Shown one piece after another: positions 2,364-36,708 of a stretch of DNA of 41,107 nucleotides. A program made the translations under genes and the position numbers. Under the pieces are notes generated by a model. The model had not been told where the DNA came from, did no database searches, and saw only the letters and a list, made by a program, of their open reading frames with translations. The stretch's first letter is position 1. Every line of letters starts with the position of its first letter. The stretch comes from Teichococcus deserti. Lineage in GTDB: Bacteria > Pseudomonadota > Alphaproteobacteria > Acetobacterales > Acetobacteraceae. The stretch covers positions 1 through 41,107 of the forward strand of contig NZ_MLCO01000098.1 of the NCBI RefSeq assembly GCF_001982615.1. The letters are read 5' to 3'.

Positions 2364-2371
2364 AGCCGCTG

Positions 2372-2408
2372 CGGCCATGGGATTTCCGATCGGTTCTCCC
2401 CATGGCCG
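2372..2408 (+). terminator. Hairpin after ppk
   Basis: A perfect 10-bp stem (CGGCCATGGG / CCCATGGCCG) with a 17-base loop starts 9 bases after the ppk stop and is followed by a T/C-rich stretch (TAGATCTTTCTCCC). It is a plausible weak intrinsic terminator, meaning the next gene may have its own promoter in the remaining 150 bases. Confidence 0.5.
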
Positions 2409-2557
2409 TAGATCTTTCTCCCTGATTTCATCGTGAAGCGGCCGTCAGCTGACCTGCCGCGCCCGCATCGCCGCGCCGCCGCGCTGGGGTCGGAACTCGG
2501 CGCGAGCGGTGCTAAGGGGGCGCTCGACCTGCCCATGCCCGCCGAGGAACTCCCTGC

Positions 2558-4371: not shown

Positions 4372-4379
4372 TCCGACTC

Positions 4380-5573: not shown

Positions 5574-5730
5574 GCTTCTAGCGAAGCTCCGCCATCCCGC
5601 AAAGTCCAGGGGGCGGAAGCAAAGCGGTGAAGCGTCGCGAAAGCGGCCGATCGGGGCTTGCGAAGGGCGGGGCAGGAGGGTTTCCTGGGCGTCTCGCGGG
5701 GGCCGCGGCGCCTGCCGGGCATGCAATCCC

Positions 5731-5759
5731 TTGACAGGGGGCCGCCCGCCGCCCCTTCT
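5731..5759 (+). promoter_or_regulatory. Candidate aspS promoter (-35 TTGACA)
   Basis: A perfect TTGACA sits at 5731-5736, 60 bases before the aspS ATG, inside the 223-bp divergent gap with rnd. At 17 bases spacing the -10 region is GC-rich (CCTTCT), so only the -35 element is convincing. Confidence 0.4.
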
Positions 5760-5796
5760 GCCCCCCTTTCCGTCCGAGCCTCGGGGTTTTCGATCG

Positions 5797-7599
5797 ATGC
5801 ACGCCTACCGCACCCATACCTGCGGCGCGCTGCGCGCCAGCGATGCGGGTCAGACCGCCCGCCTCTCCGGCTGGGTGCACCGCAAGCGCGACCATGGCGG
5901 CCTGCTGTTCATCGACCTGCGCGACCATTACGGCCTGACGCAGTGCGTGCTGCCGGCCGGCACCGCCGTCTTCGACCAGGCCGAGGCGATCCGCCCCGAG
6001 AGCGTGATCACGGTGACCGGCCAGGTCGTCGCGCGCGAGGGCGCGACGGTCAACGACAAGCTGCCGACCGGCGCCATCGAGCTGCGCGTCGCCGAGCTGT
6101 CGGTGCAGTCCCATGCCGAGGTGCTGCCGATCCAGGTCGCCGGCGACCAGGAGTTCCCGGAAGACCTGCGCCTGCGCTACCGCTTCCTCGATCTCCGCCG
6201 CGAGAAGCAGCACCGCAACATGCTGCTGCGCGCCGGCGTCATCGCCTCGATCCGCCGCCGCATGATCGAGCAGGGCTTCGTCGAATACCAGACGCCGATC
6301 CTGACGGCCTCCTCGCCGGAGGGCGCGCGCGACTTCCTGGTGCCGTCGCGCAACCACCCGGGCACCTTCTACGCCCTGCCGCAGGCGCCGCAGCAGTTTA
6401 AGCAGCTGGCGATGGTGGCGGGCTTCGACCGCTACTTCCAGATCGCCCCCTGCTTCCGCGACGAGGCGAGCCGCGCCGACCGCAGCCCGGGCGAGTTCTA
6501 CCAGCTCGACTTCGAGATGAGCTTCGTCACCCAGGAAGACGTCTTCGCCGCCATCGAGCCGGTGATGGAGGGCATCTTCGTCGAGTTCGGCAACGGCCGT
6601 AAGGTCACCCCGGCGCCGTTCCCGCGCATCCCCTACGACACGGCGATGCTGGACTACGGCTCGGACAAGCCGGACCTGCGCAACCCGCTGAAGATCACCG
6701 ACGTCACCGAGAGCTACCGCGATTCGGGCTTCGGCCTGTTCAACAAGGTGGTCGCCGGCGGCGGCATCGTCCGCGCCATCCCGGCCCCGGGCGCCGCCGA
6801 CAAGCCTAGAGGCTTCTTCGACAAGCTGAACGAATGGGCCCGCGCCGAGGGCGCCGGCGGCCTGGGCTACATCCAGTTTGCCGCCGAAGGCCCCAAGGGC
6901 CCGATCGCCAAGAACCTGGAGGCCGAGCGCGTCGAGGCGATCCGCGTCGCCTGCGGCTTGCAGACCGGCGACGCCGTCTTCTTCGCCGCCGGCAAGAAGG
7001 ACGAGACCCCCAAGTTTGCCGGCAAGGTGCGCACGCGCTTGGGCGAGGAGCTCGGCCTGATCACGCAGGACGAGTTCCGCTTCTGCTGGATCGTCGACTT
7101 CCCGATGTACGAGCTGAACGAGGAGACCGGCCAGGTCGACTTCAGCCACAACCCGTTCAGCATGCCGCAGGGCGGGCTGGAGGCGCTGAACTCGATGAAC
7201 CCGCTCGACATCAAGGCGTTCCAGTACGACATCGTCTGCAACGGCATCGAACTGTCCTCGGGCGCCATCCGCAACCACCGCCCGGACATCATGATCCGTG
7301 CCTTCGAGATCGCCGGCTACACCGAGCAGACGGTCGAGGAGCGCTTCGGCGGCATGCTGAACGCCTTCCGCTACGGCGCGCCGCCGCATGGCGGCTCGGC
7401 CCCGGGCATCGACCGCATGGTCATGCTGCTGGCCGACGAGCCGAACATCCGCGAGGTCATCCTGTTCCCGCTGAACCAGCAGGGCCAGGACCTGATGATG
7501 GGCGCCCCCGCGGCCGTGGACCATGCCCGGCTTAAAGAACTCTCCATCAAGCTCGATCTGCCCCCGGCCAAGGGTGCGGCCGGGCCCAAGGCTTCCTAA
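5797..7599 (+). CDS. aspS: Aspartate-tRNA ligase, probably non-discriminating
   Basis: Charges tRNA-Asp with aspartate. The 600 residues show the bacterial AspRS layout: N-terminal OB-fold anticodon-binding domain (residues about 1-105), class II catalytic core with motif 2 ([17 protein letters not shown]) and motif 3 ([10 protein letters not shown]), and a GAD insertion between them. The start at ATG 5797 gives the usual N-terminus [10 protein letters not shown]. The anticodon-binding loop reads RKRDHGG; the His (residue 33) matches the His linked to relaxed anticodon recognition in non-discriminating AspRS such as that of Pseudomonas aeruginosa. If so, the enzyme also makes Asp-tRNA-Asn for GatCAB. 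That part is inference. Confidence 0.97.

Positions 7600-21006: not shown

Positions 21007-21010
<4 letters not shown>
20393..21010 (-). CDS. pncA: Nicotinamidase
   Basis: Converts nicotinamide to nicotinate and ammonia in the NAD salvage pathway. The 205 residues carry the full nicotinamidase signature: catalytic Asp in VDVQPDF, metal ligands in [10 protein letters not shown], Lys in LRKGFRR and the nucleophile Cys in [10 protein letters not shown]. The last motif is usually GLATDYC, so RG replaces TD here. The start ATG at 21010 overlaps the ureG stop by 4 bases (ATGA), so it appears translationally coupled to the urease operon and is its last gene. Both PncA and urease release ammonia, a possible reason for the linkage. 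Confidence 0.92.
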
Positions 21011-21680
<670 letters not shown>

Positions 21681-21684
<4 letters not shown>

Positions 21685-22379
21685 GATCGGAAGAGCCTCG
21701 TATATTGCGTCTCGTGGCGCAGGGAGAAGAGGTCGAGCATCGGCGCCGAAGTCCCGATGCGGTCGAGGTCGGCGGCCATGCCCGCGGCCGTCGCCGCCTG
21801 CAGTGCTGGCAGCAGGCCAGCGGTCGCGATCTGCCCGTCGGTCTGGCCCAGCGGCACCAGCCGCACCCCCGCCGAGACCAGATTGGCGGCGAAAGCCGAC
21901 AGAAAGCCGAACAGTGCCATGGGCAGCGGCAGGCCCTGCCAGGCGGCCGCCGCACCGAAGGCCACGGGATGCGCCAGCACCCCCGCATGCCGCGCGGCGA
22001 AGGCAACCAGCCGCGGCTTCGGCCAGGCGGCGTTGGTGACCTTCAGGAAGGCGCTGCCCTGGGCCATGGTTTCCAGCGCCGTCTCGGCGGTGCCGCGCCA
22101 GGCGGCAGCGAGGGCTGCGACCTCGTCCAGCGCGGCCCCGTCATCGGCCAGCGCGGCCCGGAAGGCAGACGCCAGCAGCGCCGCGTCGATCCGGCCGGCG
22201 CCGGCCTCCAGCACGGTCTCGATGTAGGCGCGAAGATCGGCGCGGTTGCGCACCGCGCCGGCCTCCACCGCCATCTCCAGCCCGTGGCTATAGGTATAGG
22301 CGCCGACCGGATAGGCCGGTGACAGCCAGGTCAGCAGGCGCTGCAGATCGGCTTCAGTGGTGGTGATGGCCGTGTCCAT
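21681..22379 (-). CDS. ureF: Urease accessory protein UreF
   Basis: An all-helical activator that bridges UreD and UreG in the maturation complex. The family opening [21 protein letters not shown] is present, as is the C-terminal end [19 protein letters not shown], which contacts UreG. ATG 22379 gives 232 residues, the usual length; the start lies inside the His-rich tail codons of ureE (26-base overlap). An ATG further upstream (22451) only adds Thr/Ala/Met-rich residues that are the frame-shifted His tail, so it was rejected. Confidence 0.94.
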
Positions 22380-22893
22380 GGTCGTGGCCGTGATGGTGGT
22401 CGTGGTCATGGTCGCCGTGATGGTGGCCGGCATGGCGGTTGTGCTCGCCATAGGCGCCGCCTTCGGGGTTGAAGGGGGCGTCGACCTTGGCCAGCCTCGC
22501 GCCGAGGCCGACCAGCATCTTCTCGATCACATGGTCGGCGCGGATCAGGATGCGCTCGGCATCGATCTCGGCCGGCAGGTGGCGGTTGCCCAGGTGCCAG
22601 GCCAGGCGCAGCAGGTGGTGGATGTCGCGCGCGCGGATCTCCACCAGCGGCTCCGGCGCGGCCTGCACCAGGATGACGCCGCCGCCTTCCAGCAGCAGCC
22701 CGTCGCCATGGCGCAGCACCGTTGCCTCGGGCAGGTCGAGCAGGAAGCTCTTCCCCCCTTCGCCGGTGTAGCGCTTGCGGCGGCGGTGGCGGTCGTCGAA
22801 GTCGACGGTGATGCGGTCGCGCGCCGTGCCCGCCTGCCATTCGCCGGCCGGCAGAACCTGGGTGGCGCGGGGGAGATTGTCTTCAGTGGTCAT
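22354..22893 (-). CDS. ureE: Urease nickel metallochaperone UreE
   Basis: Delivers Ni(II) for urease assembly. The 179-residue protein has the N-terminal peptide-binding domain (DFDDRHRRRKRYTGEGGKSF) and the C-terminal metal-binding domain with DIHHLLRLAWHLGNRHLP and the conserved ADHVIEKML. It ends in a nickel-buffering tail in which His dominates the last 29 residues, mostly in HD/HG/HH steps. The tail is encoded by a simple-sequence tract (22354-22445), which may vary in length among strains. Confidence 0.96.
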   Translation of the reverse strand: MTTEDNLPRATQVLPAGEWQAGTARDRITVDFDDRHRRRKRYTGEGGKSFLLDLPEATVLRHGDGLLLEGGGVILVQAAPEPLVEIRARDIHHLLRLAWHLGNRHLPAEIDAERILIRADHVIEKMLVGLGARLAKVDAPFNPEGGAYGEHNRHAGHHHGDHDHDHHHGHDHGHGHHHH

Positions 22894-22907
22894 CGCAAGG
22901 CTCTTGA

Positions 22908-24620
<1,713 letters not shown>

Positions 24621-24623
24621 GGC

Positions 24624-24929
24624 TCAGAGCTTCCCTTCGACCAGGCCGCGGAAGCCATGCGCCACGCGGCCACCGGCGATGTCGATCAGCCGGACGCGGC
24701 GGCTCTGCCCGGGCTCGAAGCGCACCGCGGTGCCGGCGGCGATGTCCAGCCGCTTGCCGCGCGCGGCGGCGCGGTCGAAGGAAAGCCCTTCATTGGTCTC
24801 GAAGAAATGGTAGTGGCTGCCGACCTGCACCGGGCGGTCGCCGGTGTTGGCGACCTCCAGCTCGATCGCCTCGCGGCCCTCGTTCAGCGCGATCTCGCCG
24901 GGGGCTGCGATGATCTCTCCGGGAATCAT
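24624..24929 (-). CDS. ureB: Urease subunit beta
   Basis: A structural subunit of the three-polypeptide bacterial urease, 101 residues. The typical opening [20 protein letters not shown] and the core [18 protein letters not shown] are intact. It lies between ureA (10-bp gap) and ureC (3-bp gap), so the three subunits are made together. Confidence 0.97.
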
Positions 24930-24939
24930 GGGCGGCTCC

Positions 24940-25242
<303 letters not shown>

Positions 25243-25290
25243 GGGGCCATCCTGGTAGCGGCGAGTGGGGACATTGTGGCGCGGCTTTGC

Positions 25291-26118
25291 TCAGCTCGTC
25301 CACAGGCGGGGCAGGCGCGGCGGCAGGCCGAGCAGCGATGCCCGGAATTTCGGCAGGATCTTCGTCAATCCGTCACGCACCGAGGAGGCCTCGCCCAGCC
25401 AGCGCGCCAGCAGCAGGCCAGGGCGGGCGAGCGTCGCGTCCAGCCCCTCGTCCCGCATCAGGTCGCGTGCGGCGAGCGCTTCGGCGACGGGGGCGGCGAA
25501 GAGCAGCAGCGCCATGGCATTGGCGCCTGCGTAGCCGAAGGGAGCGGTGCGGCGGGCCGGCAGGTCGCCCGACAGGTCCAGCGCATCGGCCCAGTCCAGC
25601 CGGCCGCCGCGCTGCAGCCGCCAGGAATCCAAGAGGGAACCGTGGTCGAAGGCTTCGCCCCGGGCCGCGCGGCCGAGCACCAGCATCTCGGTGGCCAGCA
25701 GCCGGGCGTCGGGTGCCATCTCGACGCGCATCCGCCGCTCCAGCCGGGCGCCGTCGAACAGGATGGTTTCCTGCGGCAGCCATTCCAGCGTGGCGCCGGG
25801 GGGCAGCACCAGCCGGCTGTCGATGCGGGTGGCATCTCCCAGGCTGCGATAGATCTTCTCGGCCGCCGGCGTGGTCACCTGGGCGGCAGCGCCTGCCTCC
25901 AGCGTGACCTCCAGGGACAGGGAATCGCCGCCGGCCAGGCCGCCGCCGACATTGACCAGCGCGGCGGAGGGCAGGTCGTCCGGCTCCGGCACCGGGAAGA
26001 GGATGCGATAGGGCGCGGCATGGAACAGATGGCCGAGCGCAGTGCCGCGCGGCGTCTGGCGGAAACCGAGCTCGGCGCGGCCATGGGCGCGCTGGTGGCG
26101 GGGGGTGTCGAGGGGCAT
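25291..26118 (-). CDS. ureD: Urease accessory protein UreD
   Basis: A scaffold that binds apo-urease and recruits UreF/UreG during nickel loading. Family marks are LVNVGGGLAGGDSLSLEV, TTPAAEKIYRS, EWLPQETILFDGARL and LGRAARGE. ATG 26118 (275 residues) has GGGGAA about 9 bases upstream; a TTG at 26136 would add six residues. It starts 27 bp after the response-regulator gene, placing the two-component system at the head of the urease operon. Confidence 0.95.
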   Translation of the reverse strand: MPLDTPRHQRAHGRAELGFRQTPRGTALGHLFHAAPYRILFPVPEPDDLPSAALVNVGGGLAGGDSLSLEVTLEAGAAAQVTTPAAEKIYRSLGDATRIDSRLVLPPGATLEWLPQETILFDGARLERRMRVEMAPDARLLATEMLVLGRAARGEAFDHGSLLDSWRLQRGGRLDWADALDLSGDLPARRTAPFGYAGANAMALLLFAAPVAEALAARDLMRDEGLDATLARPGLLLARWLGEASSVRDGLTKILPKFRASLLGLPPRLPRLWTS

Positions 26119-26145
26119 CGGCGGGTTCCCCAGCAATCCCCGTGC

Positions 26146-27042
26146 CTAACCGCCGAGAACGCGCACGGCCAGCGCCGCGGCCGAGGCGCGGTTCTCGACG
26201 CCGAGCTTGGCGAAGACGCCTTCCAGGTGCTTGTTCACCGTGCGCGGGGACAGGACCAGGATATCGGCGATGTCGCGGTTCGACTTGCCGCGGCCGAGCC
26301 AGAGCAGCACCTCCGCCTCCCGCGCCGTCAGGCCGAGGCGGTCGCGCAGCATGCCTTCCTCGCGGCCGGGATCGAAGGCGGTGACGCGCAGCAGCAGCTC
26401 GTCGGGCGCGATGGCGCCGACATGGTGGAACTCGACGCGGCGGCCATCGGCCAGCGGCACCGGGGGCAGGCGGGGGGTTTCGCCCTCGGCCAGCGGCACC
26501 CAGCCGGGCAGGGCCAGGCCGGCCGGGCCGTCGCCGGGGAGCGGGGCGGCGTCGCGCAAAAGGGTCGCTGCCTGGGGGGTCGCCCAGAGCAGGGCGCCGT
26601 CGCGGTCGACCGCCAGCAGGAAGCGGCCGGCGACGTCGAGGGCGGCATGGGCGCTGCGGGTCAGCCGCGCATTGGCCAGATGGGCGGCGATGCGGGCCAC
26701 CACCTCGTCCGGCACCACCGGCTTGACGACATAGTCGACGCCGCCGGCATCGAAGCCGCGCACCACGTCCTCGCTCTCGGTGAGCCCCGTCATGAAGATG
26801 ACGGGGACGGAGACCAGCCGGGCGTTGCGCTTCATCCGGCGGCAGGCCTCGAAGCCGTCCATGCCGGGCATCACCGCATCCATCAGCACGATGTCGGGGG
26901 TGATGCGCTCGATCACCGTCATGGCGGCGGCCGCCGACTGCGCCACCAGCACCATGTAGCCGGCGCCCTCCAGCGTGTCGTTCAAGAGGCCCAGCGTGCC
27001 CGGCGCGTCGTCGACCACCAGCACGATGTCGCGGCGTTCCAT
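26146..27042 (-). CDS. Response regulator with LuxR-type DNA-binding domain
   Basis: 298 residues: receiver domain (about 5-125; acidic pair DD11-12, phospho-acceptor Asp55 in IVLMDAVMPGMDG, Thr/Lys in IFMTGLTE and VVKPVV), a middle PAS-like stretch (about 130-225), and a C-terminal LuxR/NarL helix-turn-helix (LGLTAREAEVLLWLGRGKSNRDIADIL...SPRTVNKHLEGVFAKL). Its ATG overlaps the kinase stop (TGATG), the strongest sign that the two are partners. A good GGAGGAA ribosome site precedes it. The likely targets are the divergent urt/sensor promoters and hence the urease operon; that is inference. Confidence 0.93.
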   Translation of the reverse strand: MERRDIVLVVDDAPGTLGLLNDTLEGAGYMVLVAQSAAAAMTVIERITPDIVLMDAVMPGMDGFEACRRMKRNARLVSVPVIFMTGLTESEDVVRGFDAGGVDYVVKPVVPDEVVARIAAHLANARLTRSAHAALDVAGRFLLAVDRDGALLWATPQAATLLRDAAPLPGDGPAGLALPGWVPLAEGETPRLPPVPLADGRRVEFHHVGAIAPDELLLRVTAFDPGREEGMLRDRLGLTAREAEVLLWLGRGKSNRDIADILVLSPRTVNKHLEGVFAKLGVENRASAAALAVRVLGG

Positions 27043-30000
27043 CAGCCTTCCTCCTCCGGCAGGGCGGCCATGAAGGCGTCCAGCCGGTAATCGGCGATCA
27101 GCCCGCGCAGCAGGGCGATGGCGGGGGCGGCCTCGGGCGCCTCGGCCTCCAGCGCATCCAGCCGCTCGCGGATGCCGCCGACATAGCCGATGGCGGCCAG
27201 CTGGCGCAGATTGGCGGCCTGGGCCGGGGTCAGGCGGGCGGCATCCCCGGCCGGCGCCGGCGCCGGGTCGGCGAAGGTCCAGTCGAGCCCGAGCAGCGCG
27301 CCGATCTTGTCGAGGAGAGACGACAGCGACAGCGGCTTGGGCAGCACGTCGTCATGGTGCTGGCCTTCCGATGGCGCGCCAAGCTCCAGGGCATTGGCCG
27401 AGACCATCAGGATCGGCGCGCTCTGCCCGGCCAGACGCAGGCGCCGCGCCAGGTCCCAGCCGGTCATGCCGGGCATGGCGATATCCAGCAGGAAGATGTC
27501 GGGCGATGCTTCCGCCGCCATAGCCAGGGCCTCGGCGCCATCGGCGGCCAGGCGCACGGAGAAGCCCAAGGGCTGCAGCAGGTCGGCGACCAGGGCGCGA
27601 TGCGCCGCGTCGTCATCGGCCACCAGCACCGCGGGCGCCCGGCCGCGCGGGACATGGCCGGTGATGCGGCGCTCGACCTCGGGCGCGCGGGCGGCCTTGC
27701 CAGAGAGGAGAAGACGCACCTTGAAGCGGCTGCCCTCGCCCAGGCGGCTGCTGACGGAAATCTCGCCGCCCATGATCTCGGTGAGCGTCTTGGTGATGGT
27801 GAGCCCCAACCCGACGCCGGGGGTGGAGGGCGCGTGGGAATTGCCGCCGCGCTGGAAGGGCTCGAAGATGCGCGGCAGGTCGTCCTCGGCGATGCCGATG
27901 CCGGTGTCGATGATCTCGAATTCGGCGACCTCGGAGCGGAAGCGCAGGCGGAAGGTCACCTGGCCTTGCCGGGTGAACTTGATGGCGTTGGACAGCAGGT
28001 TGATCAGGATCTGCCGCAGCCGGCGCTCGTCGGTATGGACCAGCTCGGGCAGGCGCTCGGGCGGGTCGAAGGCGAAGCCGATCGACTTGGCCTCGGCCTG
28101 CAGCCGCAGCATCTGCACGATCTGCTCGAGGAAGTCGGGCAGCCGCACCTCGTCGCGATAGAGCTCGATGCGGCCTGCCTCGATCTTGGAGATGTCGAGC
28201 AGCCCCTCGATCAGCGCCGCCAGGTGCTCGCCCGACCGGCGGATGGTGCGCAACCCGTCGCGGCGGCGCTCGGGGATGGCGGGGTCGCGCTCCAGCAGCT
28301 GGGCATAGCCGAGGATGGCGTTCAGCGGCGAGCGCAGCTCATGGCTGATGCCGATGACATAGCGGCTCTTCGCCATGTTGGCGGCCTCGGCGGTTTCCTT
28401 GGCCTTCTGCAGCGCGGCGTCGGTGCGCTGGTGGGCGCGGATCTCGCTCATCAGCAGGCTGGTCTGGCGGCGGGTCTCTTCCTGCGCGACCAGGCGGGAC
28501 TGGCGGGCCAGCACCAGGGTCCAGGCGGTGATGCCGCCGATCACCATCAGTACGAAGAAGGCCTTCCAGAAGGCAGTGTCGAGATGCGCGTTCGCTGGCG
28601 TCTGTGCCCGGATGCCGAGGAAGACGACGGAGATGGTCGCGGCGAACGCCAGAAAAACCAGCATGAAGGAGCCGACGGGGGTGCCCAGCGCCTGCATCAC
28701 CGGCGCCGGCAGGATGGCGCGCAGCGGGGTCACGATCTGGGCGGAGAGGCGGGCATGCGGCTTGCAGCCATCGCCGCAACGCGCGTCGAGCGAGCAGCAG
28801 AGCGAGCAGATCGGGCCGGTGTAGACGGGACAATAGGCCATGTCGCGCGGCTCGAAGCCGTGCTCGCAGATGACGCATTGCAGCTGGGATCGCGTGGCCC
28901 ATGCGGCGCGCGGCTTGCGGGCCAGGTAGTAGCGGCCGCCGGTGGCCCAGGCGATCGCCGGTGCCGCGGCGAAGGCGACCCCGAAGGCGATGAAGGTCGA
29001 CATGGCCTGGGCCAGCGTGCCGAGCATCCCGTAGTAAGCGAGGAAGGAGGCGACGACTGAAAGAAACATGGCGCCGACGCCGACCGGGTTGACGTCGTAG
29101 AGATGCGCCCGCTTGAACTCGATGCCCTTGGGGCTGAGGCCGAGCGGCTTGTTCACCGCCAGGTCCGCCACCAGCGCCCCCATCCAGGCGGCGGCGACAT
29201 TGGAATAGACGAAGAGCACCTGCTCGATGGTGTTGTAGACACCGAGCTCCATCAGCAGCAGCGCCACGGCGATGTTGAAGACCAGCCAGACGACGCGCCC
29301 GGGATGGCTATGGGTCAATCTGGAAAAGAAATTCGACCAGGCGAGCGACCCGGCATAGGCGTTGGTGACGTTGATCTTGATCTGCGACAGGGCGACGAAG
29401 ACCGCGGTCACCACCAGCACGAGCGTCGGCGAGGCGATCAGCGTGCCGAAGGCCAGGCGGTACATCTCGGCCGGCTGGACGGCCTGGGCCAGGGTCAGCC
29501 CGGCCTGCAGCGCGGCATAGGCCAGGAAGGAGCCGGCCAGCAGCTTGACCACGTCGAAGACGATCCAGCCCGGGCCGCCGGCCAGCAGCGCCGTCCACCA
29601 GACCCATTTCTTCTGGCGGTTCTCAGCGGGCAGGAAGCGAATGTAGTCGACCTGCTCGCCGGTCTGGGTGATCAGCGCGAAGAGCACCGAGGCGGCGGCG
29701 CCGAAGGCCAGAAGATCGAAGCCGCCGGTGCCGCGCTCGCCTTCGTATTCGGTCCAGCCGGCGATCCAGTCGGGATGGGCGACCAGCAGGCCGATCAGCG
29801 GCAGCACGTTCAGCACCAGCCAGACCGGCTGGGTCCAGGTCTGCACCCGGCTGATGAAGGTGATGCCATGCGTCACCAGCGGCACCACCACCACGGCGCA
29901 GAGGATGTAGCCCAGCCAGAGCGGGACGCCGAAGAAGCTGTCCAGCATCGCCGCCAGGATCACCGCCTCGATGCCGAAGAAGATGAAGGTGAAGCTGGCA

Positions 30001-30365
30001 TAGATCAGCGAGGTGATGGTGGAGCCGATATAGCCGAAGCCGGCGCCGCGGGTCAGCAGGTCGACATCCACGCCGGCGCGGGCGGCGGCGACGCAGATCG
30101 GCAAGGACGCCGCGAAGATCAGCACCGAGACGAAGAGGATGGCGGCGACGCTGTTGGTGAAGCCGTGGGCGACGGTCAGGGCGCCGCCGATCGCCTCCAG
30201 CGCCAGGAAGGAGATCGAGCCCAGCGCGGTGCTGGCGACGCGGAAGGCGGACCATTTGCGCGCACTCTCGGCGGTGAAGCGCAGTGCATAGTCTTCCATG
30301 GTCTCGTCGGCGACCCAGCGGTTGTAGTCGCGCCGGATGCGCAGGATGCGCTGGCGTGTCGCCAT
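27042..30365 (-). CDS. NCS1-type permease fused to hybrid sensor histidine kinase
   Basis: A 1107-residue fusion. Residues about 10-480 form a roughly 12-helix membrane domain like purine-cytosine permeases (NCS1, PF02133 type). Residues 497-534 hold eight cysteines, a possible metal or redox site. Two further hydrophobic segments (about 562-584 and 600-620) and a coiled coil lead into a kinase: phospho-acceptor His675 in SHELRSPLN, N box NLLSNAIKF, G1 DTGIGIAEDD, G2 VGLGLTI. A receiver follows (about 912-1025, Asp961 in LLDIAMPGMTGW), then a short helical tail resembling a phosphotransfer region but without an obvious His. It sits between the urea transporter and urease genes and overlaps its regulator. 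It likely senses a urea-, purine- or allantoin-type compound by transport or binding; the ligand is unknown. Confidence 0.92.
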   Translation of the reverse strand: MATRQRILRIRRDYNRWVADETMEDYALRFTAESARKWSAFRVASTALGSISFLALEAIGGALTVAHGFTNSVAAILFVSVLIFAASLPICVAAARAGVDVDLLTRGAGFGYIGSTITSLIYASFTFIFFGIEAVILAAMLDSFFGVPLWLGYILCAVVVVPLVTHGITFISRVQTWTQPVWLVLNVLPLIGLLVAHPDWIAGWTEYEGERGTGGFDLLAFGAAASVLFALITQTGEQVDYIRFLPAENRQKKWVWWTALLAGGPGWIVFDVVKLLAGSFLAYAALQAGLTLAQAVQPAEMYRLAFGTLIASPTLVLVVTAVFVALSQIKINVTNAYAGSLAWSNFFSRLTHSHPGRVVWLVFNIAVALLLMELGVYNTIEQVLFVYSNVAAAWMGALVADLAVNKPLGLSPKGIEFKRAHLYDVNPVGVGAMFLSVVASFLAYYGMLGTLAQAMSTFIAFGVAFAAAPAIAWATGGRYYLARKPRAAWATRSQLQCVICEHGFEPRDMAYCPVYTGPICSLCCSLDARCGDGCKPHARLSAQIVTPLRAILPAPVMQALGTPVGSFMLVFLAFAATISVVFLGIRAQTPANAHLDTAFWKAFFVLMVIGGITAWTLVLARQSRLVAQEETRRQTSLLMSEIRAHQRTDAALQKAKETAEAANMAKSRYVIGISHELRSPLNAILGYAQLLERDPAIPERRRDGLRTIRRSGEHLAALIEGLLDISKIEAGRIELYRDEVRLPDFLEQIVQMLRLQAEAKSIGFAFDPPERLPELVHTDERRLRQILINLLSNAIKFTRQGQVTFRLRFRSEVAEFEIIDTGIGIAEDDLPRIFEPFQRGGNSHAPSTPGVGLGLTITKTLTEIMGGEISVSSRLGEGSRFKVRLLLSGKAARAPEVERRITGHVPRGRAPAVLVADDDAAHRALVADLLQPLGFSVRLAADGAEALAMAAEASPDIFLLDIAMPGMTGWDLARRLRLAGQSAPILMVSANALELGAPSEGQHHDDVLPKPLSLSSLLDKIGALLGLDWTFADPAPAPAGDAARLTPAQAANLRQLAAIGYVGGIRERLDALEAEAPEAAPAIALLRGLIADYRLDAFMAALPEEEG

Positions 30366-30451
30366 GCTGGGCGGGGTCCTCGAGGCTAGCCGAGGGCCGA
30401 GAGTGGGACGTGGCCCGGAAGCCCGTCAAGCGCGGCGGCGCCCGGCCGGCC

Positions 30452-30467
30452 TACGTCATTTGACGTA
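30452..30467. promoter_or_regulatory. Palindrome in the urtA/sensor divergent promoter region
   Basis: TACGTCA and TGACGTA are perfect 7-base arms around TT, followed at once by CGTATACG (30464-30471), a second perfect 8-base dyad. This is an AT-richer island in the 184-bp gap between two divergent operons, about 85 bases from each start codon. It is the best operator candidate for the LuxR-type regulator. No clear sigma-54 (GG-N10-GC) element was found here. Confidence 0.5.
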
Positions 30468-30549
30468 TACGCTTCGGAAACGGTCCCCGCGATGCTGCTC
30501 CGCACCATGCATCAGGCGGCCTGCGCGCCGCGACCCGGAGAGCGATCCC

Positions 30550-31797
30550 ATGACGATCAGGACCCCCTTCTCCCGCCGCGCTTTGCTGGCGGCGGGCGCC
30601 GGCGCCTTGGCCATGCCGGCGCTGCGCCCGGCCTCCGCGCAATCCGGCCCGATCAAGGTCGGCGTGCTGCATTCGCTGTCCGGCACCATGGCGATTAGCG
30701 AGACCGCGCTGCGCGACACCGTGCTGATGATGGTCGAGGACGCCAACAAGAAGGGCGGCATCCTGGGCCGCAAGGTCGAGGCGGTGGTGGTCGACCCCGC
30801 CTCCAACTGGCCGCTCTTCGCCGAGAAGGCGCGGGAGCTGCTGCAGGTGCACAAGGTCGACGTGACCTTCGGTTGCTGGACCTCGGTGTCGCGCAAGTCG
30901 GTGCTGCCGGTCTTCGAGGAGCTGAACGGCCTGCTGTTCTACCCGGTCCAGTATGAGGGCGAGGAGCAGTCCAAGAACGTCTTCTACACCGGCGCCGCGC
31001 CCAACCAGCAGGCCATTCCCGCGGTCGAGTATCTGATGAGCGAGGATGGCGGCGCCGCCAGGCGGATCGCGCTGCTGGGCACCGACTATGTCTATCCGCG
31101 CACGACCAACCGCATCCTGCGCGCCTTCCTGAACAGCAAGGGCATTTCCGACGCCGACATCATGGAGGAATACACCCCCTTCGGCCATTCCGACTGGCAG
31201 GGCATCGTCAGCCGGGTGAAGCGCTTCGCCGGCGAGGGCAAGAAGACCGCCATCGTCTCGACGATCAACGGCGACGCCAATGTCCCCTTCTATCGCGAGC
31301 TGGGCAACCAGGGGATCAAGGCGGAGGATATCCCGTCCGTCGCCTTCTCGGTCGGCGAGGAGGAGCTGGCGGGCATCGACGCCAAGCCGCTGGTCGGGCA
31401 CCTGGCCGCCTGGAACTATTTCATGAGTGTCGACAGCCCGGTGAACACCGAGTTCAAGGCGATGTGGTCCGCCTATATCAAGAACCCGAAGCGGGTCACC
31501 AACGACCCGATGGAGGCCACCTATACCGGCTTCAAGATGTGGAGCCAGGCGGTGGCGAAGGCGGGCTCGACCAGCGTCGATGCCGTGCGCACCGCGATGT
31601 ATGGCCAGAAGGTCGCGACGCCGTCGGGCTATGAGGAGCAGATGTTCGAGAATCATCACCTGTCGAAGCCGGTGATGATCGGCGAGATCATGGAGAACGG
31701 CCAGTTCAACGTGGTCTGGAAGACGTCCTCGGCCATTCCTGCCGAGAACTGGTCGCCATTCATTCCGGAGAACGCGTCTCGCCGGAAGCCGACCTGA
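30550..31797 (+). CDS. urtA: Urea ABC transporter substrate-binding protein
   Basis: The periplasmic urea-binding protein of the UrtABCDE importer, 415 residues. A twin-arginine-like signal (FSRRALLAAGAGAL...ASAQ) suggests export by Tat. UrtA landmarks follow: IKVGVLHSLSGTMAISE, VDPASNWPLFAEKA, FGCWTSVSRKSVLPVFEE, LLFYPVQYEGEEQS and GTDYVYPRTTNRILR. The last residues (ENASRRKPT) run into sequence related to the intergenic repeat, so the extreme C-terminus may have been reshaped by it. It opens the urt operon and diverges from the sensor gene. Confidence 0.96.
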   Translation: MTIRTPFSRRALLAAGAGALAMPALRPASAQSGPIKVGVLHSLSGTMAISETALRDTVLMMVEDANKKGGILGRKVEAVVVDPASNWPLFAEKARELLQVHKVDVTFGCWTSVSRKSVLPVFEELNGLLFYPVQYEGEEQSKNVFYTGAAPNQQAIPAVEYLMSEDGGAARRIALLGTDYVYPRTTNRILRAFLNSKGISDADIMEEYTPFGHSDWQGIVSRVKRFAGEGKKTAIVSTINGDANVPFYRELGNQGIKAEDIPSVAFSVGEEELAGIDAKPLVGHLAAWNYFMSVDSPVNTEFKAMWSAYIKNPKRVTNDPMEATYTGFKMWSQAVAKAGSTSVDAVRTAMYGQKVATPSGYEEQMFENHHLSKPVMIGEIMENGQFNVVWKTSSAIPAENWSPFIPENASRRKPT

Positions 31798-31800
31798 TTA

Positions 31801-31859
31801 TTCAAAAATAGAAGGGGCGCAAACCTATAGGTTTGCGGGGGGGATACTTCCCCCCAACC
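31801..31859 (-). repeat. Solo repeat end unit between urtA and urtB
   Basis: The unit contains the perfect 18-base palindrome GCAAACCTATAGGTTTGC (31819-31836), then a G/C hairpin (GGGGGGA 31838-31844 / TCCCCCC 31849-31855). An A-rich AAAAATAGAAGGGG stretch lies to its left. This is the same order as the left end of repeat copy 1, read on the opposite strand. It fills the urtA-urtB gap up to the urtB ribosome site. On the urt mRNA it would form two consecutive hairpins without a U-run. Confidence 0.7.
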
Positions 31860-31880
31860 TTCCTTTGGAGGGCTGGGTCG

Positions 31881-33434
31881 ATGTGGCGCGTGGTGCTGCT
31901 GCTCCTGGTGTTTGCCTTGCCCGTGCGTGCCCAGGGCGGTTTCGAGGCCGCGCTGCCTGGCCTGGCCGGCGGCTTCGCGCAGCAGGCCGAGGCGGTGGAG
32001 CGGCTGGGCGCGATCGGCGATCCGCGCGCCGTGCCGATCCTGCGGGCGCTGGCGGAGGGGCGGATGCAAAAGCGGGCCGATGGGGGCTTGCTGATCGTCG
32101 AGGGTGGCGCGGTGCGCGACGCCCTGACCGGCGCCGCTGCCGAGGCCGGCGAGGTGGTGCGCATCAACAACCGGGTGCGCGGCGCGCTGCGCGGGGCTTT
32201 CGGCCGGCTGCAGCTGCTGTCGCCGGATCCGGCGGAGCGCATCGCCGCCGCCGAGGGGCTGTTCCGCAGCCGATCCCCCGAGAATGTCTCTCTGCTTGAA
32301 GACGCTGTCGGGCGGGAGACCGATCCTGCGATCCGCGACCGGATGACGCTGGCGCTGGCCGCGTCCCGGCTGGCGGCGCCCGAGGATGTGGCGAAGCGCC
32401 AGGGCATCGTGGTGCTTGGCGGCACGGCCTCGGCCGAGGCGCGCGGGCTGCTGCTGGAGGCGCGGGCCGCCAATCCGGCGCTGGCCGCCGAGATCGATGC
32501 CGCGGTCGCCGCCATCGACACGAGGCTGCAGCTGAAGCGCGTCGCCGAGACGGCGTTCCAGGGGTTGTCGCTGGGATCGATCCTGCTGCTGGCGGCGCTG
32601 GGGCTGGCCGTCACCTTCGGGGTGATGGGCGTGATCAACATGGCGCATGGCGAGATGGTGATGCTCGGCGCCTATACGACGGTGCTGGTGCAGGAGCTGT
32701 GCCGCGGCGTGCCCTGGCTGGCGCCGTTGTCGCTGCCGATCTCGGTGCCGGCGGCCTTCCTGGTGACGGCGGCAGTGGGCGTGGCGCTGGAGCGCGGGTT
32801 GATCCGGCATCTCTACGGGCGTCCGCTGGAGACGCTGCTGATGACCTTCGGCGTGGGCATGATCCTGCAGCAGGGGGTGCGGCTGCTCTTCGGCGCGCAG
32901 AACCGCGAGGTGGTGTCGCCCTCCTGGATGCAGGGCACCCTGCTGCTGCCGGGCGGCATCGAGGTCACGCAGAACCGGCTGTGGATCATCCTCTTCAGCT
33001 TGGTGGTGCTGGGCCTGACGGTGGCGGCGATCCGCTTCAGCCGCTTCGGGCTGGAGATGCGCGCCGTGGTGCAGAACCGGCGGATCGCGGCGACCATGGG
33101 CATCCGCACCGGCCGCGTCGACGCGATGACCTTCGCCTTCGGGTCGGGCATCGCCGGGATGGCGGGCGTCGCACTCAGCCAGATCGACAATGTCTCGCCG
33201 AACCTCGGCACCGGCTACATCATCGACAGCTTCATGGTGGTGGTCTTCGGCGGCGTCGGCAGCCTGGCCGGCACCATGATCGGGGCCCTCACGCTCGGCG
33301 TCGTCAACAAGATGCTGGAGCCCTGGGCGGGCGTGGTGCTGGCGAAGATCGCCGTGCTGGTCGGCATCATGCTGTTCATCCAGCGGCGGCCGAAGGGGCT
33401 GTTCGCGCTGAAGGGAAGGGCGGCGGAACAATGA
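31881..33434 (+). CDS. urtB: Urea ABC transporter permease UrtB
   Basis: A LivH-type inner-membrane permease, 517 residues. A signal peptide-like start (MWRVVLLLLVFALPVRAQ) is followed by a helical periplasmic region of about 200 residues (SADPAERIAAAEGL-like repeats, here SPDPAERIAAAEGLF), an extension typical of UrtB. The permease core begins near LQLKRVAETAFQGLSLGS, with VINMAHGEMVMLGAY. ATG 31881 has GGAGG about 10 bases upstream. Its stop overlaps the urtC start (ATGA). Confidence 0.95.
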   Translation: MWRVVLLLLVFALPVRAQGGFEAALPGLAGGFAQQAEAVERLGAIGDPRAVPILRALAEGRMQKRADGGLLIVEGGAVRDALTGAAAEAGEVVRINNRVRGALRGAFGRLQLLSPDPAERIAAAEGLFRSRSPENVSLLEDAVGRETDPAIRDRMTLALAASRLAAPEDVAKRQGIVVLGGTASAEARGLLLEARAANPALAAEIDAAVAAIDTRLQLKRVAETAFQGLSLGSILLLAALGLAVTFGVMGVINMAHGEMVMLGAYTTVLVQELCRGVPWLAPLSLPISVPAAFLVTAAVGVALERGLIRHLYGRPLETLLMTFGVGMILQQGVRLLFGAQNREVVSPSWMQGTLLLPGGIEVTQNRLWIILFSLVVLGLTVAAIRFSRFGLEMRAVVQNRRIAATMGIRTGRVDAMTFAFGSGIAGMAGVALSQIDNVSPNLGTGYIIDSFMVVVFGGVGSLAGTMIGALTLGVVNKMLEPWAGVVLAKIAVLVGIMLFIQRRPKGLFALKGRAAEQ

Positions 33435-34531
33435 GCGCCTCCATCACCCTGGGCGGGCGGCTGCGCCCCGCACCCGGCACCATCCTGCGCGGGCTGCTGC
33501 TGGCGGGCCTGGCCCTGCTGGCCCTGCTGCCGGTGCTGAACCGGCTGCCGCCCGACGCGGCGCTCTATGTCTCCGACTTCGTGGTGGCGGTCTCGGGCAA
33601 GTGGATCTGCTACGCCATCCTGGCGCTGGCGATCGACCTGGCCTGGGGCTATGCGGGCATCCTCAGCCTGGGGCATGGCGCCTTCTTCGCGCTCGGCGGC
33701 TATGCCATCGGCATGCACCTGATGCGCCTCATCGGCCCTCGCGGCGTCTATGGCCATCCGGTGCTGCCGGATTTCATGGTCTTCCTGGGCTATACCGAGC
33801 TGCCCTGGTACTGGCAGGGCTTCCAGTTCTTCCCCTTCGCCTTCGCCATGGCGCTGATCGTGCCGGGGGTGCTGGCGGGGGTGCTGGGCTGGCTCGCCTT
33901 CCGCAGCCGCATCACCGGCGTCTATCTCAGCATCATCACCCAGGCGATGACCTATGCCCTGATGCTGGCCTTCTTCCGCAACGACATGGGCTTCGGCGGC
34001 AACAACGGCTTCACCGACTTCAAGGAGCTGCTGGGGATGCCGCTGAACACCGCCGGCGCCCGCGCCGCGCTGTTCTACGCGGCGCTGGCCTCGCTGGGGG
34101 CGTCGCTGCTGCTGTGCCGCCACATCACGAAATCCAAGCTCGGCCGGGTGCTGGTGGCGGTGCGCGACGCCGAAAGCCGCGTGCGCTTCCTGGGCTACGA
34201 CACCACCGCGGTGAAGCTGTCGGTCTTCGTGCTGTCGGCGATGCTGGCGGGGCTGGCGGGCGCGCTCTACGTGCCGCTGATCGGCATCATCAACCCGGGC
34301 GAGTTCAGCCCGGGCAATTCGATCGAGGCCGTGGTCTGGGTCGCGGTCGGCGGGCGCGGGACGCTGGTGGGGGCGCTGCTCGGCGCCTTCTCGGTCAATG
34401 CGATCAAGACCTGGCTGACCTCCTTCGCGCCGGACCTGTGGCTCTTCGTGCTCGGTGGGCTGTTCGTCGCGGTCACGCTGCTGCTGCCGCGCGGCATCGT
34501 GGGTCTCCTGCAGAAGGGGCCCGGCCGATGA
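33431..34531 (+). CDS. urtC: Urea ABC transporter permease UrtC
   Basis: A LivM-type inner-membrane permease, 366 residues, that pairs with UrtB to form the channel. Diagnostic stretches are DLAWGYAGILSLGHGAFFALGGYAIGMHLM, seen here in two adjoining parts, and FFRNDMGFGGNNGFTDFK. The later loop LVAVRDAESRVRFLGYD is the conserved ATPase-contact region. The start overlaps urtB and the stop overlaps urtD, each by ATGA, showing a translationally coupled operon. Confidence 0.95.
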   Translation: MSASITLGGRLRPAPGTILRGLLLAGLALLALLPVLNRLPPDAALYVSDFVVAVSGKWICYAILALAIDLAWGYAGILSLGHGAFFALGGYAIGMHLMRLIGPRGVYGHPVLPDFMVFLGYTELPWYWQGFQFFPFAFAMALIVPGVLAGVLGWLAFRSRITGVYLSIITQAMTYALMLAFFRNDMGFGGNNGFTDFKELLGMPLNTAGARAALFYAALASLGASLLLCRHITKSKLGRVLVAVRDAESRVRFLGYDTTAVKLSVFVLSAMLAGLAGALYVPLIGIINPGEFSPGNSIEAVVWVAVGGRGTLVGALLGAFSVNAIKTWLTSFAPDLWLFVLGGLFVAVTLLLPRGIVGLLQKGPGR

Positions 34532-35265
34532 GGGACGGAAGGCTGTATCTCGACGGTGTCTCGGTGGTCTTCGACGGCTTCCGGGCCCTGAACAATCTTT
34601 CCCTGATCGTCGAGCCAGGAGAATTGCGGGCGATCATCGGGCCGAACGGCGCCGGCAAGACCACGATGATGGACATCATCACCGGCAAGACGCGGCCCAC
34701 CGCCGGCACCGTCAGCTTCGGCGACCGCGACTTGACCAGGCTGGACGAGGCGACCATCGCCAATCTCGGCATCGGCCGGAAATTCCAGAAGCCCACGGTC
34801 TTCGACGCGCTGACCGTCTTCGAGAACCTGGAGCTCGCGCTGAAGGCGCCACGCGACCCCTGGTCCTGCCTGCGCTGGCGGCTGTCCGGCACCGCCCGCC
34901 GCTGCATCGAGGCGGTGCTGGAGGAGATCGGCCTGGCCGAGCGCGCCGACCACCGTGCCGCCATCCTGTCGCATGGCCAGCGGCAATGGCTGGAGATCGG
35001 CATGCTGCTGATGCAGGACCCGAAGCTGCTGCTGGTCGACGAGCCGGTCGCCGGCATGACCGACCAGGAGACCGAGCACACCGCCGCCCTGCTGCGCCGC
35101 ATCGCCGGCAGCCGCAGCGTCGTGGTGGTGGAGCACGACCTGGAATTCGTCCGCGCCCTGGGGGAGAAGGTCACCGTGCTCTGCGAAGGCAGCGTGCTGT
35201 CGGAAGGCAGCATCGACCATGTCCAGAACGACCCGCGGGTCGTCGACGTCTATCTGGGGCGCTGA
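34528..35265 (+). CDS. urtD: Urea ABC transporter ATPase UrtD
   Basis: A LivG-type ATPase, 245 residues. Walker A GPNGAGKTT, Q-loop FQKPTVF, the UrtD-type signature LSHGQRQWLEIGMLL (SHGQ instead of SGGQ), Walker B LLLVDEP, and H-loop VVVEHDLEFVR are all present. It starts inside the urtC stop (ATGA overlap) and ends 3 bases before urtE. Confidence 0.95.
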   Translation: MRDGRLYLDGVSVVFDGFRALNNLSLIVEPGELRAIIGPNGAGKTTMMDIITGKTRPTAGTVSFGDRDLTRLDEATIANLGIGRKFQKPTVFDALTVFENLELALKAPRDPWSCLRWRLSGTARRCIEAVLEEIGLAERADHRAAILSHGQRQWLEIGMLLMQDPKLLLVDEPVAGMTDQETEHTAALLRRIAGSRSVVVVEHDLEFVRALGEKVTVLCEGSVLSEGSIDHVQNDPRVVDVYLGR

Positions 35266-35268
35266 GCC

Positions 35269-35961
35269 ATGCTGCGCGTCGACGGCATCGATTTGTTCTA
35301 TGGCGCCAGCCGGGCTTTGCGGGGGGTTTCCCTCGAAGCCGATCCGGGGCGCATCACCTGCGTGCTGGGGCGCAACGGCGTCGGCAAATCCTCGCTGATG
35401 CGGGCGATCGTCGGCCTGGAACGGGTGAAATCCGGTCGCATCGTCTGGGAGGGGCGCGATGTCACCAGCGATTCCGCCGCCGACCGGGCGCGGGCCGGCA
35501 TCGGCTACGTCCCGCAGGGGCGCGAGATCTTTCCCTTCCTGACGGTGCGGGAGAACCTGGAGACGGCGCTGGCCGCGGCGCCGCGCGGGTCGAAGGTGCC
35601 GGACGACGTCTTCGAGCTGTTCCCCGTCCTGAAGCAGTTCCTGCGCCGGCGGGGCGGCGACCTGTCGGGCGGCCAGCAGCAGCAACTGGCGATCGCGCGG
35701 GCGTTGACGGCGCGGCCGCGGCTGCTGATCCTGGACGAGCCGACCGAGGGCATCCAGCCCAATGTCATCAAGGACATCGCCCGCGTCATCGCGCTGCTGG
35801 CGAAGCGCCGCGACATGGCCGTGGTGCTGGTCGAGCAGTATTACGAATTCGCCCGCGAGCTCGGCGACCAGCTGGCCATCATGGTGCGCGGCGAGGTGGC
35901 GCTGGCCGGCCAGTCCGGCGCTCTGGACGAGGCGGCGGTGCGCCGGCTGCTGACGGTCTGA
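35269..35961 (+). CDS. urtE: Urea ABC transporter ATPase UrtE
   Basis: A LivF-type ATPase, 230 residues, the second nucleotide-binding subunit. It shows IDLFYGASRALRGVS at the start, Walker A GRNGVGKSS, YVPQGREIFPFLTV, signature LSGGQQQQLAIARAL, Walker B LLILDEPTEGIQPNV and the H-loop region VVLVEQYYEFA, where Gln replaces His as is common in LivF/UrtE. It is the last urt gene and converges with an RTX-repeat gene after only 24 bp. Confidence 0.95.
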   Translation: MLRVDGIDLFYGASRALRGVSLEADPGRITCVLGRNGVGKSSLMRAIVGLERVKSGRIVWEGRDVTSDSAADRARAGIGYVPQGREIFPFLTVRENLETALAAAPRGSKVPDDVFELFPVLKQFLRRRGGDLSGGQQQQLAIARALTARPRLLILDEPTEGIQPNVIKDIARVIALLAKRRDMAVVLVEQYYEFARELGDQLAIMVRGEVALAGQSGALDEAAVRRLLTV

Positions 35962-35985: not shown

Positions 35986-36708
35986 TCAGGCCGCGAAGAG
36001 GATGTCGCCGGCCTGCAGGGCGTGCACGCCCTTCAGATGGATCTCGGTGTCCTCGTAGACGGCGAAGAAATGCAGCTCGAGGCCGGCGGCGGTGTCGACC
36101 AGGGTCACGTCCTCCGCGCGGAGATAGAGCGGCCGCAGGTCGATCGTGTCGATGCCCACCTGGAAGTCGTGGATGGTGTCGATGCCGTCATTGGCGTCAT
36201 AGGCCCGCTCGCTGTTGGAGGGGTCGTAGGCATAGACGAAGCTGTCCGCCCCCGAGCCGCCCCAGAGCTGGTCGGCGCCGGCGCCGCTGTGGATGACATC
36301 GTTGCCGCTGCCGCCCTTGATGGTGTCGTTGCCGCTGCCGCCATACAGGATGTCATGGTTGCTGCCGCCGTCGATCAGGTCGTCGCCGCCGCCGCCCAGG
36401 ATGGTGTCGCGGCCGCGGCCGCCGAACAGCCGGTCGGCCTGGTCCTCGGAGGCGAAGATATTCTCGGCGCTGGGCGTCGGCCCGGCCACGCCATAGCCGG
36501 TGATATAGTCGTTGCCGTCGCCACCATAGATGACGTCGCGGCCATAGCCGCCGAACAGGCTGTCACTGCCGCTGCCGGCCATGATCAGGTTGCTGCCGCC
36601 GGCCCCGTCGCGCGGCGAGGCCAGGCCGTCGGCCAGGATGGTATCGGCCTCGGTGTGGCTGGAGAACAGAAAGTTGTCGTTCTTCAGAGTGCCTTCGTAG
36701 CGCGCCAT
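35986..36708 (-). CDS. Small RTX (hemolysin-type Ca-binding repeat) protein
   Basis: 240 residues with no signal peptide. The middle (about 45-160) is a run of RTX nonapeptides such as GGYGRDVIYGGDGND, GGRGRDTILGGGGDD and GGSGNDTIKGGSGND, which bind calcium and fold as a beta-roll outside the cell. The part after SGADSFVYAYDPSNSERA is a typical C-terminal cap (IDTIHDFQVGIDTIDL). Such proteins are usually exported by a type I system through an uncleaved C-terminal signal; no such transporter is in the window. No enzyme domain is visible. The AT-rich gap upstream holds a candidate operator. Confidence 0.85.
   Translation of the reverse strand: MARYEGTLKNDNFLFSSHTEADTILADGLASPRDGAGGSNLIMAGSGSDSLFGGYGRDVIYGGDGNDYITGYGVAGPTPSAENIFASEDQADRLFGGRGRDTILGGGGDDLIDGGSNHDILYGGSGNDTIKGGSGNDVIHSGAGADQLWGGSGADSFVYAYDPSNSERAYDANDGIDTIHDFQVGIDTIDLRPLYLRAEDVTLVDTAAGLELHFFAVYEDTEIHLKGVHALQAGDILFAA

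Follow-up and report, generated by a model that had tools for sequence, protein, structure and literature searches.

The locus described here raises the question of what a sensor kinase encoded between the genes for urea import and those for urea breakdown perceives, and which genes it controls. It lies in a stretch of 41,107 nucleotides of Teichococcus deserti (NCBI RefSeq assembly GCF_001982615.1, contig NZ_MLCO01000098.1, positions 1 to 41,107), the whole of which was analysed and is called the window below. One gene of the window encodes a 1107-residue protein in which an NCS1-like permease domain is joined to a hybrid histidine kinase, followed by the gene of a response regulator. From sequence comparison, we consider it likely that this protein is a transceptor kinase for urea or small amides which, through its regulator at a palindromic DNA site, would switch on both uptake and hydrolysis. 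It is the probable sensor of both gene sets because kinase, regulator and palindrome sit between the urea import and the urea breakdown genes; as the first-pass annotation of this DNA had placed it, the kinase gene is flanked by urtABCDE (forward strand, from the ATG at 30550) and ureDABCEFG (reverse strand, from 26136 down).

Permease, kinase and receiver form a single protein, as had been claimed: the open reading frame (ORF; 27042–30365, reverse strand) is open throughout, and HisKA (residues 666–731), HATPase_c (778–887) and the receiver (913–1021) score far above their Pfam cut-offs; residues before 660 gave no Pfam match above cut-off. The phosphorylatable histidine, the N, G1 and G2 boxes and the receiver aspartate read earlier are all present (H675 in SHELRSPLN, N789/N793, DTGIGI, GVGLGL and D961, together with K1010), and the catalytic motifs are at least 95% conserved in a set of 22 rows, one of which (L040; L and G numbers denote loci and genomes of our collection) is a wrong ORF. 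With HisKA, HATPase_c and receiver in one chain and the catalytic residues intact, the protein is a hybrid histidine kinase by sequence. In genome contigs, 241 relatives were detected, the best 80 of which were kept; these are 47–94% identical, nearly all full length and mainly from Proteobacteria, and this conservation over near the full length makes a chance ORF or a false join in the assembly less likely. To these were added 20 further loci from 299 genomes of the order, 70 of which have the permease domain; each of these 20 (L081–L100) covers less than 5 kilobases (kb), the window itself being L081. In one genome (G106) the gene is split, the permease half (L108, 1963–3555) and the half with the cysteines, transmembrane (TM) helices and kinase (L107, 2098–4041) lying about 14 kb apart, with what read from sequence as mobile-element genes between them.

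The ancestry of the membrane domain was less readily apparent. The first-pass annotation had called it NCS1-type and had proposed searching it separately from the kinase part; in direct searches, residues 1–490 drew no match to a carrier family from Pfam, from NCBIfam or, by sequence and by profile, from the PDB. The cut-offs of the NCS1 families PF02133 and TIGR00800 are not reached by the window's domain, TIGR00800 giving no match at all, and PF02133 found nothing in any of 18 family members or across the window's own genome. To that extent the domain does fail to match NCS1 permeases; in profile-profile comparison it does not. By hhalign, an alignment of 18 family members (L040, L096, L098 and L100 left out) matched 31 ORFs from PF02133 loci at 99.5% (E 1.6e-22; 421 columns, residues 18–468), against 3.8% only for 24 SLC5 ORFs and 0.1–0.3% for three reversed controls, all values being pairwise and without database background; the NCS1 and SLC5 profiles matched each other at 90.9% (E 1.1e-6). 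An intermediate protein, L109, shares 26% identity with the domain of the window; it scores 38.9 bits with PF02133, for which the cut-off is 23.5, and reaches E 2.6e-11 with TIGR00800, under that model's cut-off. An SLC5 origin was rejected on the hhalign value, the missing Pfam match and the finding that PF00474 matches nothing in the window's own genome. Family-averaged hydropathy gave 11 peaks in residues 50–468, one of which (119–167) spans 49 residues, long enough for two helices, and we therefore read the domain as having 12 TM helices. Trp117, Gln121, Ser312 and Thr313 of Mhp1 are positions that we take to belong to its pocket region. Mapped by eye via L113 to the Mhp1 alignments (2jln/4d1a), they correspond to Phe129, Glu133, Lys330 and Ile331; Phe129 is found in 44/47 fused members, and Glu133 and Lys330 are identical in all 47 fused and all seven standalone members. 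Judged by these comparisons the domain is a distant branch of NCS1 with an altered pocket region, since the mapped positions differ from those of Mhp1.

Between permease and kinase lie a cysteine-rich module and an additional pair of TM helices. The eight cysteines (497, 500, 512, 520, 523, 524, 530 and 534) are invariant in 17/17 aligned fused relatives. No Pfam family above cut-off covers the module; comparison with PDB sequences returned short zinc-finger and rubredoxin matches only, and a weak prokaryotic RING match appeared in one of the 17 members (E 0.1), neither of which led us to assign a family. A STAC domain was likewise without a Pfam match above cut-off in residues 490–660, the presence of a STAC model in our Pfam copy being unchecked. 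Among kinase-free relatives, L101–L104 keep all eight cysteines, L105, L110 and L173 keep 497, 500, 520 and 523, and L106 has the same four plus a fifth, one place before 512. The four-cysteine set of L105, L110 and L173 points to a pair of metal sites, one of them open to loss. The module probably binds two metal ions.

The packing of the genes ties the kinase to urea breakdown. Its stop codon and the ATG of the regulator gene share one base, the regulator is separated from ureD by 9 base pairs (bp), gaps of 48, 10, 3 and 14 bp follow down to ureE, and the ORFs beyond ureE overlap. No terminator-like site was found on the reverse strand between 20900 and 27042, and no sigma-70-like promoter in the stretch scanned with the kinase gene. 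Kinase, regulator and ureDABCEFG would thus be read as one transcript.

The proposed link to the import genes is a perfect palindrome, TACGTCA-TT-TGACGTA, in the intergenic region from which the two gene sets diverge; the kinase start lies 86 bp away from it and the ATG of urtA 82 bp. We take its 7-2-7 spacing to resemble that of NarL sites. In the window's own genome this is the single place within two mismatches of the palindrome, as against five for a reversed control pattern. The core TACG-N8-CGTA occurs 150 times in 1.73 Mb of the 80 relative loci: 112 sites lie within 500 bp upstream of the kinase gene (the start of which was set at 10001 in L006), 31 upstream of the formamidase gene fmdA and seven elsewhere. 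Four of these seven are 720–1400 bp upstream of the kinase gene (L015, two in L046, L079) and one precedes amiF (L072); those in L047 and L064 are unexplained. Among the 78 loci with enough sequence, 71 have a core in the 500 bp preceding the kinase gene, compared with 94/15600 shuffled upstream regions, the shuffles preserving base composition only. In 330-bp upstream regions from 97 loci (L081, L023 and L029 left out), the core is present in 84 and the exact palindrome in 60. The palindrome is conserved from Roseomonas through to Pseudomonas, and Klebsiella plasmids have it with one change. Because the regulator is co-encoded with the kinase and co-occurs with the palindrome, we infer that it is the protein which binds this site.

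The site also marks other genes. A core lies 64–97 bp upstream of fmdA in 35/46 loci (in L101–L104 in a space common to fmdA and the kinase gene) and before a standalone permease gene in L101 and L103; in L072 and L178 the promoter region of amiF, a formamidase gene unrelated to fmdA, has the site. Of 299 genomes of the order, 17 have the exact palindrome, and each of these belongs to the 70 that encode the permease domain. One-mismatch matches were set aside as evidence, since they also occur without the permease domain and the reversed control likewise has many matches. Three genomes (G009, G028, G029) carry a second exact palindrome, in G009 and G028 about 125 bp upstream of a 481-residue ORF which in G028 is an OprB-type porin by Pfam. 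At loci L176 (2450–4031) and L177 (2295–3881) the gene downstream of the second exact palindrome is that of an OprB-type porin, by Pfam in L176 and by sequence likeness in L177, and such a porin is possibly the outer-membrane entry for urea or amides.

The gene neighbourhoods indicate which compounds are concerned. A count of fusions beside urt and ure genes, as had been proposed, gave a UrtA-like ORF in 95/100 loci and the regulator in 80/100. UrtA was taken as urea-type at ≥55% identity to the window's UrtA and as the other type at 30–55%. The 40 loci with urea-type UrtA, 16 of which hold too little flank to judge the neighbours, include 19 with ure genes and none with fmdA; among the 55 with the other type, 41 carry fmdA, four of them together with ure genes; five loci lack UrtA. 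Pfam confirmed FmdA in one member (PF03069), and many relatives, including those of Pseudomonas, Bordetella and Klebsiella plasmids, are found at formamide-type loci. AmiF, a formamidase of another superfamily, takes part in Acetobacter pasteurianus (L072), in L178 and on a Klebsiella plasmid (L172). On this IncF plasmid (CP024483.1) the cluster runs from 5909 to 16264 of L172 as amiF-urtEDCBA beside the kinase-regulator pair. Because a formamidase gene accompanies the other UrtA type at 41 of 55 loci, the ligand would be urea and/or small amides. Urease, in turn, is encoded by 67 of the 70 genomes of the order with the permease domain and by 136 of the 229 without it. In PLSDB, 528 plasmid records contain the permease domain, 342 of them from Klebsiella; among the matches listed, the genes are mostly labelled 'ATP-binding protein', with ArcB, response regulator and hybrid sensor histidine kinase as further labels.

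Kinase-free relatives of the permease offer a natural comparison. These proteins of about 530–610 residues are approximately 40–50% identical to the fused permease domain and form one clade apart from the fused forms (Shimodaira-Hasegawa-like approximate likelihood ratio test (SH-aLRT) support 99; seven standalone and 48 fused rows). The tree comes from a quick search with SH-aLRT only, L112 is a very long branch in it, and L081 (the window's duplicate), L040, short permease regions and rows ≥92% identical to a kept row were left out. In L101–L103, loci with both fmdA and ure genes, the standalone gene follows the kinase-regulator pair, and in L104 it precedes it. In seven small genomes of the window's family (Acetobacteraceae), probably of acetic acid bacteria, the permease stands alone; urease is present in 7/7 and UrtA in 0/7, and in six of the seven the permease gene lies within about 8 kb of ureC. 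An eighth genome (G044) retains a permease remnant only and has neither urease nor UrtA. UreI/AmiS is absent from all eight genomes, and the UT family gave one match below cut-off among them, a search whose sensitivity is unproven as the control genomes were also without match. In Acinetobacter johnsonii (L173, 5663–7270) a gene annotated 'allantoin permease' directly precedes ureEFGJDABC; its product is probably, by prediction, a urea carrier. The permease had been put forward as the input domain of a urea-linked kinase, and this is borne out by the hhalign match to NCS1, the packing with regulator and ure genes, the palindrome shared with urtA and these kinase-free relatives beside urease genes.

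We propose the following series of steps. The NCS1-like membrane domain would bind, and perhaps also move, urea or another small amide; the resulting conformational change would be relayed by way of the eight-cysteine module and the two additional TM helices to the HisKA/HATPase core, where H675 would be phosphorylated. The signal would then reach the co-encoded LuxR/GerE-type regulator, either directly or with the C-terminal receiver as a gate, and the phosphorylated regulator would bind TACGTCA-NN-TGACGTA between the kinase gene and urtA. Both divergent sets would thereby be switched on, urtABCDE for uptake and kinase-regulator-ureDABCEFG for hydrolysis and for the sensor itself. In relatives, the same sensor and operator would be paired with a formamidase gene, not with urease. 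A wider possibility, which we hold tentatively and rate at somewhat below even chances, is that a distinct NCS1-derived family has become dedicated to the smallest compounds among ureides and amides (urea, formamide), the kinase-free members being an unrecognised class of urea carriers and the fused members transceptors with a one-palindrome regulon. That the carriers serve urease in UrtA-less, small-genome Acetobacteraceae-type bacteria and in Acinetobacter is held with the same reserve. An acidic residue in the first TM helix separates the two groups, being Asp at position 56 in 7/7 standalone proteins and Glu at 57 in 47/47 fused ones, and turning a carrier into a receptor may have involved this difference.

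Several observations weigh against the urea/amide transceptor and its regulon. The core is missing within 500 bp of the kinase gene in 7/78 loci and upstream of fmdA in 11/46 (L017, L044, L052, L057, L063, L064, L065, L067, L068, L074 and L111), 20 of the 229 genomes that lack the permease domain have a one-mismatch site, and many genomes are also matched by the reversed control pattern. The counts of loci are not independent, since many are near-copies (Pseudomonas, Roseomonas), and the Fisher tests ignore kinship. On the tree, urea and formamide contexts require four changes, which makes one ligand for all members an assumption; one of the four may be added by L020, the urea-type label of which rests on a UrtA fragment. 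No HPt domain was matched by Pfam, and the list of conserved residues from the 22-row set contains no histidine past residue 1004. Three terminator-like sites lie within the kinase gene on its own strand, a number near chance (four found in the stretch, 2.6 expected). Finally, the standalone gene of Arthrobacter (L174, 7935–9611) is divergent from bioB-, bioA- and bioF-like genes, which look like biotin-synthesis and not urea genes, and its product retains only Cys 497; context and cysteine loss argue against urea as the family's only substrate, and the latter indicates that the module is not always needed.

Five of the 20 genomes with a one-mismatch site form a case of their own. In the kinase-free loci L179–L183, the site lies between ORFs resembling urea carboxylase and fatty-acid hydroxylase (only L180 was scanned for families); it looks orthologous among the five and is unexplained.

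Among the alternatives, the one that survives best is that formamide or another short amide is the true ligand everywhere and that urea loci use a borrowed amide sensor. The 55 loci with the lower-identity UrtA type, 41 of them with fmdA, would suit it, as would the sites upstream of two unrelated formamidase genes and the Klebsiella plasmid that places amiF-urtEDCBA beside the kinase. We nevertheless find it unlikely, because the window has urease and no formamidase gene was seen in its gene set, fmdA is found in none of the 40 urea-type loci, and in two distant groups the kinase-free relatives lie next to urease genes.

Somewhat less likely still is that the permease is a transporter only, or an anchor, and that the cysteine module senses metal or redox state, which would suit the nickel enzyme urease. 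The invariance of all eight cysteines points this way, as do the loss of four of them in L105, L110 and L173, as if one metal site had gone as a unit, and the NicO-type nickel transporter gene that adjoins the standalone permease gene of L105. Ni2+ activates the formamidase of Helicobacter pylori (PMC10781810); the same paper describes H. pylori amidases as free of metal ions, yet the module is equally conserved at formamidase loci, and the likely pocket positions of the permease are conserved as well as the cysteines. That nitrogen status or ammonium, not the substrate, is reported finds a precedent in Ks-Amt5, in which an ammonium transporter is fused to a kinase (PMC5764959), and is nonetheless very improbable here, since residues 1–490 gave no Amt/Rh match in Pfam and the palindrome is almost wholly confined to one substrate class. 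Sensing of a purine-breakdown compound (allantoin, hydantoin, uracil), as by classic NCS1 carriers, has NCS1 ancestry and one standalone 'allantoin permease' label on its side, and is rejected as the most improbable reading on gene context, the identified recurrent neighbours being urea or formamide genes, and on the pocket, where Phe129 (44/47 fused) and invariant Glu133 stand at the positions of Mhp1 Trp117 and Gln121; of the 'urea or purine-breakdown sensor' suggested by the first-pass annotation, the urea part thus stands, widened to small amides, and the purine part falls.

The urea/amide transceptor can be set beside known systems. Our searches of open-access papers, which leave out most subscription papers, listed no description of an NCS1-based kinase; an NCS1-like carrier as kinase input thus appears to be new, the transporter-kinase layout itself being known from CbrA-like systems. 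Transporter-kinase receptors have been called rare; in CbrA, described as a transceptor, the kinase input is an N-terminal nutrient carrier, an SLC5 domain with a histidine pocket (PMC13022988). Nearest in layout is CrbS/R, in which a hybrid kinase is paired with CrbR, a regulator of the LuxR family dependent on an inverted repeat in front of its target genes (PMC5715377). The window system differs from both in its NCS1-like carrier in place of SLC5, its eight-cysteine module and two TM helices with no STAC found, its urea/amide loci and its other palindrome. Ks-Amt5 likewise joins a transporter for a nitrogen compound to a histidine kinase (PMC5764959), but the carrier is Amt and the ligand ammonium. 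With Mhp1 and CodB (PF02133) the window domain shares profile-level homology across 421 columns, yet it is too divergent for PF02133 and TIGR00800, has Glu at Gln121 and Lys330/Ile331 at Ser312/Thr313, and carries the cysteine module and kinase in addition. For the Methylophilus fmdCABDEF cluster, the available text names only a putative positive regulator and no permease-kinase. Pseudomonas veronii Yu15, which grows with formamide as nitrogen source, has amiE-fmdA-fmdB-urtABCDE, a gene set like that of the Pseudomonas loci found here; 'histidine kinase' and 'two-component' have no occurrence in the main text (PMC13209695). In the P. veronii locus of our set (L040), a palindrome site precedes fmdA. 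A histidine kinase with a LuxR regulator is named in a figure legend of PMC13296017, the available part of PMC11109136, on S-components, does not mention NCS1, and that of PMC8472584, on Acinetobacter urease operons, mentions no permease in the operons. The ammonia-sensing GrtK/GrtR system was considered and set aside as unrelated, with 427 residues, a PilS-like membrane part and a Fis-type regulator (PMC12918730).

If the urea/amide transceptor is correct, many bacteria of soil, plant-associated and clinical origin would have in it a sensor for urea uptake and for the expression of urease. It would also provide an NCS1-based transporter-kinase with standalone natural controls, opening the step from carrier to receptor to comparison, as well as a predicted regulon and candidate urea carriers, one of which is now annotated as an allantoin permease.

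Table 1. Positions in the window of the permease-kinase gene, its parts, the candidate operator and the flanking urea genes.
Feature	Position	Strand	Basis and remarks
Hybrid histidine kinase with NCS1-like permease input, whole gene	27042–30365	−	Open ORF, 1107 residues; Pfam, relatives
NCS1-superfamily domain, residues 1–490, read as 12 TM helices	28896–30365	−	hhalign, hydropathy
Eight-cysteine module, residues 497–534	28764–28877	−	C-x2-C-x11-C-x7-C-x2-CC-x5-C-x3-C
Extra TM helix pair, residues ~565–614	28524–28673	−	Family-averaged hydropathy peaks 565–584, 600–614
HisKA (H675) and HATPase_c, residues 666–887	27705–28370	−	Pfam and motifs
Receiver domain, residues 913–1021 (D961, K1010)	27303–27629	−	Pfam and motifs
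Candidate operator TACGTCATTTGACGTA	30452–30467		Perfect 7-2-7 palindrome, 16 bp, in 184-bp divergent region 30366–30549
Partner response regulator, 298 residues: receiver (D55) and LuxR/GerE helix-turn-helix	26146–27042	−	Pfam
ureD, ureA, ureB, ureC, ureE, ureF, ureG	21007–26136	−	ureC by PF00449; remaining genes named by reading and from matches to annotated Ure proteins
urtA, urea-type substrate-binding protein, head of divergent urtABCDE	30550–31797	+	UrtA likeness
urtB, urtC, urtD, urtE (ABC urea importer)	31833–35961	+	Gene order; UrtA/UrtB likeness to annotated L172 proteins

Beyond these genes, a 240-residue protein with RTX calcium-binding repeats is encoded directly past urtE on the opposite strand (35986–36708, reverse). 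At the other end of the window (84–7596, forward), genes for a polyphosphate kinase and an exopolyphosphatase lie near one another and, further on, one for a class II tRNA synthetase with a GAD domain.

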